DNA of 44,592 bases from Nitrososphaerota archaeon (GTDB lineage Archaea; Thermoproteota; Nitrososphaeria; Nitrososphaerales; UBA213), in contig PAWD01000008.1 of NCBI GenBank assembly GCA_002713325.1, forward strand, positions 1 to 44,592, given 5' to 3'. Position 1 is the stretch's first letter. Every line of letters begins with the position of its first letter. The notes under the pieces were generated by a model. The model did not search any database, was not told where the DNA came from, and was given only the letters and a program-made list of their open reading frames with translations. Below, in pieces: positions 31,276 through 36,107 of this stretch. The translations under genes were made by a program, and so were the position numbers.

Positions 31276-31501
31276 AAAATCATTCAGAAAAAAGCAAATA
31301 TTTAGCTTTCTATTGTTTTATTTACTATCCACAACCCAAAAAAAGGCCATGAATAAGGGATTATTCGATGAATCTGCCATATAATATCCTAAACAAATAG
31401 TCACAAATCACTTTTCTTCATGTATAATTTGATATAGAAGCTCTGATCTGATAGATGTTTTTATGCGGGCCCGTCGGGCATCGATCCCGAGACCACCGGA
31501 T

Positions 31502-31515
31502 ATCTTCAGTCAAGT
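31502..31515 (-). other. tRNA-Lys intron 2, 14 nt, position 37/38
   Basis: ACTTGACTGAAGAT; BHB central helix CTTT/GAAG, bulges TA^A and AT^A, outer helix is the anticodon stem. Confidence 0.8.
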
Positions 31516-31522
31516 TAAAAGT

Positions 31523-31535
31523 TTCACCATTTCTT
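31523..31535 (-). other. tRNA-Lys intron 1, 13 nt, position 30/31
   Basis: AAGAAATGGTGAA; BHB central helix CATC/GGTG, bulges GG^A and AA^A, outer helix AGAG/CTTT. Confidence 0.78.
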
Positions 31536-31747
31536 CCGATGCTCTACCTGACTGAGCTACGGGCCCTAAAACCTCTTCCAAACGCTATAATTTTAGTTTT
31601 GGTTTTTCAGTTGAATTTTTTCTTGTAATTTAGAGAGTATGCGCTTCCGGTAATAATTCCCTCAAACTATTCCTAAATTACTAATATAATAATGAACTAT
31701 AATTCTTGAATGTAAGAATTGTGTGTTGATAAACTACAAATCTAATA

Positions 31748-34964: not shown

Positions 34965-35110
34965 AAAGTATTACATAATGATAGAAAAAAGGAATAAAAT
35001 ATGATAAAAACACTACAAATCTAAACACACCAAACAAAATATGATAGAAAAATCTCATTTAAGAACAATTGAAGTGGGCCCGAAGGGGTTTGAACCCTTG
35101 ACCTACCGGT

Positions 35111-35122
35111 TTCTCATATTAT
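35111..35122 (-). other. tRNA(CAT) intron 2, 12 nt, position 37/38
   Basis: ATAATATGAGAA; BHB central helix CTCA/TGAG (perfect), bulges TA^A and AA^A, outer helix ACCGG/CCGGT. Confidence 0.85.
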
Positions 35123-35151
35123 TATGAGCCGGTCGCTCTGCCAGGCTAAGC

Positions 35152-35175
35152 TTCCCTCCACTCTTTTAGAGTAGT
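35152..35175 (-). other. tRNA(CAT) intron 1, 24 nt, position 9/10
   Basis: ACTACTCTAAAAGAGTGGAGGGAA; inner helix CTACTCT/AGAGTGG with AAA loop; central helix CCCG/AGGG with one G-A mismatch. Confidence 0.75.
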
Positions 35176-35303
35176 TACGGGCCCTCCTAGCTTTCAGCCC
35201 ATAATATGGCTTTCCTCAATAGGACAATCTTGTAGTCCAGATCAAACCCTATATATTTTGCGTAGTTAACAATAGAATGTTAGTTATAGATCTTGAATTA
35301 CAA

Positions 35304-35936
35304 TCATGATTTAACATAATTTTCGTATACCGCATCGAGAATTGTGTTCTGTGCAACTAGTGATGATACAGCACTATCAAATGCATCTTCATGTTTATTA
35401 ATGGGAAGTTTTGCAAGATTGTTTCGCCATACAGCTGCATGCTTTATATCAACACTTTCGTGTATCCTAAAATACTCTGTTGAGTTATCATCAGTTATAC
35501 CATAAAACTTGGCTAGACCGTCGATTTTAGATCTACTTATCTTAGGTATCTCAGCTTCATATGCATACATCGCAGCAATACCATTCTCAAATATCTCCGT
35601 TAGATTCAACATTTTTTCTATTGAATTTTGAGTTTTTAGTGATACATTATGACTCTCTAGTTCCTCTCTTTTCACACCTAACGCACCTGCAAACCTTATC
35701 CATGGCTCTATATGGTCACTTTCCTCCTTTAGATTCATTATTATATTCTCATCACTCCTTCTAGCCGAAAGATGCTGTACCATTAAGGGTACGGCTTTGA
35801 CTAAAGTGAAGTACTCCTTTGTATAACCTTGAAGTGATTCCATACTTAATTTACCCTCTGACCACATCTGGTAAAAAGGGTGTTTCAGAAGACTTTTCTT
35901 CTGTATCTCCTGATCTATTCTCTTTATAAGCATCAA
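35304..35936 (-). CDS. TenA/CADD-like heme-oxygenase-fold protein (putative diiron, pABA-synthase-like)
   Basis: HPFYQMWSEGKLSMESLQGYTKEYF, EESDHIEPW, YAYEAEIP, YFRIHESVDIKHAAVW metal-ligand-like pattern. Confidence 0.72.
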   Translation of the reverse strand: MMLIKRIDQEIQKKSLLKHPFYQMWSEGKLSMESLQGYTKEYFTLVKAVPLMVQHLSARRSDENIIMNLKEESDHIEPWIRFAGALGVKREELESHNVSLKTQNSIEKMLNLTEIFENGIAAMYAYEAEIPKISRSKIDGLAKFYGITDDNSTEYFRIHESVDIKHAAVWRNNLAKLPINKHEDAFDSAVSSLVAQNTILDAVYENYVKS

Positions 35937-36011: not shown

Positions 36012-36107
36012 GCTCCGGTGGTGTAGAAGTAAGTTATATTGCACAATCCGGTCAAGCATTGCGGCCTTTCGAGCCGCGGATCCCGGGTTCAAATCCCGGC
36101 CGGAGCA
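36012..36107 (+). tRNA. tRNA-Glu(TTC) with a D-loop intron
   Basis: GCTCCGG TG GTGT AG[20-nt intron]TCCGGTCAA GCAT T GCGGC CTTTCGA GCCGC GGATC CCGGG TTCAAAT CCCGG CCGGAGC A. Mature length 76 nt. Confidence 0.9.
36027..36046 (+). other. tRNA-Glu intron, 20 nt, position about 15/16 in the D-loop
   Basis: AAGTAAGTTATATTGCACAA; central helix GTGT/GCAC, bulges AG^A and AA^T, inner helix AGTA/TATT. Confidence 0.8.

Follow-up and report, generated by a model that had tools for sequence, protein, structure and literature searches.

A putative two-intron tRNA-Ile2(CAU) gene with an intron at position 9/10 in an archaeon of the order Nitrososphaerales

A twice-interrupted tRNA gene with the anticodon CAT lies on a contig of a Nitrososphaerota archaeon of the ammonia-oxidiser type (order Nitrososphaerales in the GTDB sense). 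The locus raises two questions, namely whether the product is a methionine tRNA or tRNA-Ile2, and how an intron could be removed when its predicted central helix is built on the acceptor strand of the same tRNA. The window, i.e. the whole stretch of 44,592 nucleotides that was analysed, belongs to an assembly (G000) that is an 84%-complete bin with a contamination estimate of 4.9%. The family of this genome is labelled f1, with G001 as its only other genome; f2 denotes the Nitrosocaldaceae and f7 the Nitrososphaera group, which includes G007.

Structure and limits of the gene

The features of the locus are as follows.

35304..35936, minus strand: TENA/PqqC-like (haem-oxygenase-fold) gene, upstream of the tRNA gene (Pfam PF03070/PF14518)
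35075..35184, minus strand: putative pre-tRNA-Ile2(CAU) gene, 110 nt, two introns
35176..35184, minus strand: exon 1, GGGCCCGTA, bases 1-9; the same in G001 L151 and the Nitrosocaldaceae
35152..35175, minus strand: intron 1, ACTACTCTAAAAGAGTGGAGGGAA, 24 nt, site 9/10; homologues in seven Nitrosocaldaceae genomes, absent from G001 L151
35123..35151, minus strand: exon 2, GCTTAGCCTGGCAGAGCGACCGGCTCATA, bases 10-37; anticodon CAT at 35126-35124
35111..35122, minus strand: intron 2, ATAATATGAGAA, 12 nt, canonical site 37/38; ATAAAATGAGAA at the equivalent site in G001, none in G007
35075..35110, minus strand: exon 3, ACCGGTAGGTCAAGGGTTCAAACCCCTTCGGGCCCA, bases 38-73, discriminator A

Read from 35184 to 35075, the precursor is GGGCCCGTA / ACTACTCTAAAAGAGTGGAGGGAA / GCTTAGCCTGGCAGAGCGACCGGCTCATA / ATAATATGAGAA / ACCGGTAGGTCAAGGGTTCAAACCCCTTCGGGCCCA. 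The spliced product, GGGCCCGTAGCTTAGCCTGGCAGAGCGACCGGCTCATAACCGGTAGGTCAAGGGTTCAAACCCCTTCGGGCCCA, has 74 nt and forms a cloverleaf with a CAU anticodon and A73, in which all pairs of the acceptor (7/7), D (4/4), anticodon (5/5) and T (5/5) stems are present. The initial annotation had described a CAT tRNA with two insertions whose removal leaves perfect acceptor, anticodon and T stems; its coordinates and both insertions are exact, the gene lies on the minus strand, the D stem pairs as well, and homologues back both intron positions, 9/10 and 37/38. ARAGORN reported no tRNA in the whole window, and the Rfam tRNA model matched 35075-35156 (minus strand, 31.3 bits), missing the true 5' end. Genes of such build are overlooked or shortened by ordinary tRNA finders.

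The limits of intron 1 are set to within one nucleotide by comparison of the two f1 sequences, independently of any fold. G001 L151 encodes the identical 74 nt without the 24-nt insert and with a similar 12-nt ATAAAATGAGAA at 37/38; the identity of the 74 nt in a genome of the same family also indicates that the tRNA gene is not a chance resemblance. Both base 9 and the last base of intron 1 are A, and the comparison therefore leaves either 8/9 or 9/10. The Nitrosocaldaceae introns end in T, so that only 9/10 fits there. Intron 2 has no equivalent in the tRNA-Ile2 of G007 (f7), which has no 37/38 intron.

The genome is rich in tRNA introns according to a hand reconstruction, in which only the tRNA-Lys and tRNA-Glu genes of the window were checked by script. 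Other introns were placed at about 7/8 (Ala GGC), 10/11 (Gln TTG), 15/16 (Pro TGG, Glu TTC, Gly TCC) and 30/31 (Phe GAA), and at 37/38 (Asn, Leu, Pro, Ser). In the window, tRNA-Lys(TTT) (31466-31566, minus strand) has two introns, AGAAATGGTGAAA (about 31/32) and ACTTGACTGAAGAT (37/38), and gives a 74-nt spliced tRNA, and tRNA-Glu(TTC) (36012-36107, plus strand) has a 20-nt intron, AAGTAAGTTATATTGCACAA, at about 15/16 with the central helix GTGT/GCAC. The introns of tRNA-Ala(GGC) and tRNA-Gln(TTG), which lie beside the acceptor strand, occur in both f1 genomes (L021/L164 and L023/L166), and a near-copy of the first seven bases of the tRNA-Gln gene stands in front of it (AGCCCGGA AGCCCGGT). In a tRNA-Arg(TCT) gene (L031, on G000:C21, near 61169-61228), the D loop holds an intron of about 50 nt with CTCAGTTTGG repeated at its ends; these 10 nt of exon sequence form an exact direct repeat. 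Target-site duplications flanking the D-arm introns of tRNA-Gly and tRNA-Pro were considered and rejected, the exon repeats being ordinary D-loop sequence. The bin also holds bacterial-looking tRNAs (L004, L009, L013), and a tRNA-Val region occurs on two of its contigs (L002, L003).

Identity of the CAU tRNA

Searches of the 84%-complete G000 gave no gene for elongator or initiator tRNA-Met, and the distinction from Met rests on relatives, against which the comparison with other CAT tRNAs proposed in the initial annotation was made. The CAU tRNAs of G007 are of three distinct kinds: L173, which begins with GGGCCCA, has no intron and adjoins a TENA-like gene; L174, an elongator-type tRNA beginning with GCCGGGG; and an initiator type with an AGCGGGG start and a D-loop intron, located near TiaS. 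Here GCCGGGG is presumed to mark elongator Met and AGCGGGG the initiator, from what is generally known of archaeal tRNAs. L173 is the orthologue of the window gene and has a TENA/PqqC-like neighbour in common with it; the window gene is therefore classified, by orthology and synteny, as tRNA-Ile2(CAU) and not tRNA-Met. The TENA/PqqC-like gene also adjoins tRNA-Ile2 in several other loci of the Nitrososphaeraceae and Nitrosocaldaceae, which makes it useful for orthology.

That the gene is an elongator tRNA-Met with two introns is very unlikely. The anticodon CAU and the failure to detect other CAU tRNAs in the incomplete assembly would agree with such a gene, but G001 has two CAU tRNAs, of which L151 gives the same mature tRNA as the window and L153 is a separate gene of the elongator-Met type (GCCGGGG) with orthologues in G002 and G046. 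Moreover, it is the TENA-adjacent member of the three CAU tRNAs of G007, the initiator included, that matches the window gene. The relatives thus carry separate Met genes, and the comparison points to Ile2.

As tRNA-Ile2, the product would read AUA after modification of C34 by TiaS (agmatidine synthetase). Of 757 Ile codons in 20 long ORFs of the window, 363 (48%) are AUA, more than for either other Ile codon, and the tRNA-Ile2 gene should therefore be essential. It was found in one copy only; the 84%-complete assembly yielded no second Ile2 gene, intronless or other, a result that covers the intronless duplicate isoacceptor that the initial annotation had named as evidence against its reading. 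TiaS was found in G001, G002, G046 and G007 and was not found in the 84%-complete G000. In G007 (L254/L219) and G002 (L255/L216), TiaS and an initiator-type tRNA-Met gene are about 1 kb apart; neither gene was found in the window assembly, and one assembly gap may explain both.

Intron 1: distribution, history and folding conflict

The window genome and seven f2 genomes matched a covariance model of the 9/10 intron (R1) with 62-74 bits, while no other match in the 400 genomes searched, all of this order, exceeded about 26 bits. The assignment of f2 to the Nitrosocaldaceae is based on sequence; the tRNA locus of one f2 contig (G018:C11) is identical to that of the Nitrosocaldus SKYG19 contig JANWZS010000001.1. 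When the window intron is aligned with those of six f2 genomes, the GGGCCCGTA start is invariant in all seven and GGGA stands near the 3' end. The inner helix (CTACTCT/AGAGTGG in the window) has changes on both sides in four of its six pairs, with a covariation score that was reached by none of 500 shuffles and that is destroyed when the inner-helix partners are slid.

In the six relatives the GGG near the 3' end takes part in a 4-bp central helix, CCCG/CGGG, with two flanking 3-nt bulges. The window copy has three C-G pairs, with acceptor C4-C6, and a G7·A mismatch, which is found in the window genome only among the seven aligned copies; it may possibly be a sequencing error or reflect a truly relaxed substrate. 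The outer helix (GC, GU, GU) is weak, with three pairs, and gives no evidence, as its pairs never vary. An outer helix extended into the leader (GCTAGG/CTTAGC) can be drawn for the window copy and is not claimed, having no consistent counterpart in Nitrosocaldus leaders. The Nitrosocaldus Ile2 genes (L034, L037, L041, L042, L047) have in common a leader of about 20 nt, with AGCCGGTTGCC...AGGT in most, and a TATA-like element near -45; where the 9/10 intron is lacking, TTTATA lies closer to the gene, at about -23 to -36.

With respect to history, the tree of the TENA-like gene places f1 as sister of the Nitrosocaldaceae (support 98/95), a grouping that rests on this single gene tree; the endonuclease tree was too small to resolve family placement. 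As the intron is present in the Nitrosocaldaceae and f1 groups with them, inheritance followed by precise loss is the simplest account, and intron 1 most likely comes from the common ancestor of the two families and was lost in G001. Elsewhere in the order, the tRNA-Ile2 of some families has a D-arm intron in place of the 9/10 intron, mostly together with a 37/38 intron (L043, L051, L054, L058, L060). It is unlikely that intron 1 was instead gained within the genus by transposition, e.g. from a tRNA-Lys with GGGCCCGTA, the gene and its splicing being otherwise the same. Transposition of introns from tRNA to tRNA has been described in Thermoproteales (PMC4090602), and in other members of the phylum the R1 model finds tRNA-Lys genes whose 9/10 introns are built alike (CCCG/CGGG, TA^A), for example GGGCCCGTA / AACCATGGATGGTCGGGAA / GCTCAGC, from which it appears that the site is recurrent in tRNAs having the common GGGCCCGTA. 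However, no 9/10 intron interrupts the tRNA-Lys(TTT) of the window, whose 5' end is identical, and the intron is present in the Ile2 genes of all seven of the above Nitrosocaldaceae.

The 7-bp hairpin that had been noted in intron 1 is real (-7.1 kcal/mol, z -2.8), and so is the anticodon-loop hairpin (-12.3 kcal/mol, z -4.1). Intron 2 is inserted one base 3' of the anticodon, and the anticodon loop pairs with it through CTCA/TGAG, with a 3' bulge AA^A. For this hairpin, RNAfold prefers CTCATA/TATGAG (6 bp, 4-nt loop) to the CTCA/TGAG of the initial annotation (5-nt loop) with a 5' bulge.

The central helix of intron 1 uses acceptor bases 4-7, so that it and the acceptor stem are mutually exclusive. 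In computed naked-RNA energies at 37 C, the BHB-type (bulge-helix-bulge) central helix matches the minimum-energy fold in all four 3'-incomplete prefixes (38, 46, 60 and 110 nt) of an f2 precursor, L047, and in two of the four prefixes of the window precursor, being 1.0 and 2.6 kcal/mol above the minimum in the others. The 41-nt 5' piece of the window precursor is no better folded than shuffles (z -0.5). With the 3' acceptor strand included, folding favours the acceptor stem by 5.8 (L047) and 9.1 (window) kcal/mol. The initial annotation was thus right that the helices of intron 1 preclude the acceptor stem, but went too far in stating that this stem cannot be formed, since it is more stable by about 9 kcal/mol in the full precursor. 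The folds suggest early or co-transcriptional splicing of intron 1: by these models, if it is not spliced early, the minor fold would have to be captured by the endonuclease or a helper. A wider proposal, which we put forward as possible though doubtful, is that the 9/10 intron is a folding switch at an insertion site set by the acceptor sequence. Its BHB would hold only as long as the 3' acceptor strand has yet to be transcribed, so that cleavage by the endonuclease would have to be co-transcriptional and precede RNase P; the recurrent use of one CCCG strand in tRNA-Ile2 and tRNA-Lys would mark the site of intron insertion.

Splicing and comparison with known archaeal tRNA introns

The genome encodes an endonuclease alpha subunit, while a beta subunit was not found in the 84%-complete G000; two endonuclease paralogues (PF01974) are present in all seven relatives tested. 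The alpha subunit aligns to endonuclease chains of known structure from Aeropyrum, Sulfolobus and Pyrobaculum and has KPK at the loop position K44-P45-R46, its lysine aligned with Aeropyrum K44 and followed by P and K. This loop has been tied to broad substrate range (PMC12397907), and the (alpha-beta)2 type has been assigned to Thaumarchaeota (PMC4090602).

Taken jointly, these observations are best explained, with high confidence, by a single-copy tRNA-Ile2(CAU) gene reading AUA once modified by TiaS, with two archaeal BHB-type introns removed by a relaxed (alpha-beta)2 endonuclease. Intron 2 would form a bulge-helix-loop with the anticodon loop, and intron 1 would pair acceptor C4-C6 with the GGG near its 3' end, leaving the bulges T8 A9^A (5') and AA^G10 (3'). 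The endonuclease would cleave in the bulges and a ligase would then join the exons; intron 1 may leave before the acceptor stem closes and hence before RNase P acts. A decaying pseudogene, in which the 9/10 insertion is unspliced since the central helix has lost a pair, is highly improbable. The private G7·A mismatch would fit such decay, but the exons have no substitution relative to G001, the gene is the sole Ile2 found where AUA is the commonest Ile codon, and (alpha-beta)2 enzymes cut relaxed motifs (PMC4033280, PMC12397907).

The locus contributes a noncanonical intron site that is well delimited and lies at the acceptor/D junction. Presence and absence of the intron in two genomes with identical mature tRNAs make intron loss, and the order of splicing relative to acceptor-stem closure and RNase P, directly testable.

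Compared with canonical archaeal 37/38 introns (BHB or bulge-helix-loop), intron 2 is alike in position, in anticodon-intron pairing and in its 3-nt 3' bulge AAA, but differs in being only 12 nt long and in having no separate inner helix. The noncanonical introns of Thermoproteales, Thaumarchaeota and Caldiarchaeum are likewise short BHB introns at many sites, sometimes two or three per gene; tRNAscan-SE 2.0, with a model trained on them, lists 107 in Thaumarchaeota (PMC8450103). Position 9/10 is not among the sites named in the text of the review PMC4090602 (20/21 to 59/60, 3/4, 'etc.'), and intron 1 of the window differs in that its central helix is built on the 5' acceptor strand. A search of a literature library found no paper on Nitrosocaldus tRNA introns. 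The closest system is the Nitrosocaldus tRNA-Ile2 (tested on L034/L085 and L047), in which the tRNA, the 9/10 intron and the neighbouring gene are all alike, but the central helix is intact (CCCG/CGGG) and the 37/38 intron is longer (22-38 nt, versus 12 nt in the window). The kind of gene is already known and ordinary for Thaumarchaeota; its interest lies in the 9/10 site and the folding conflict.
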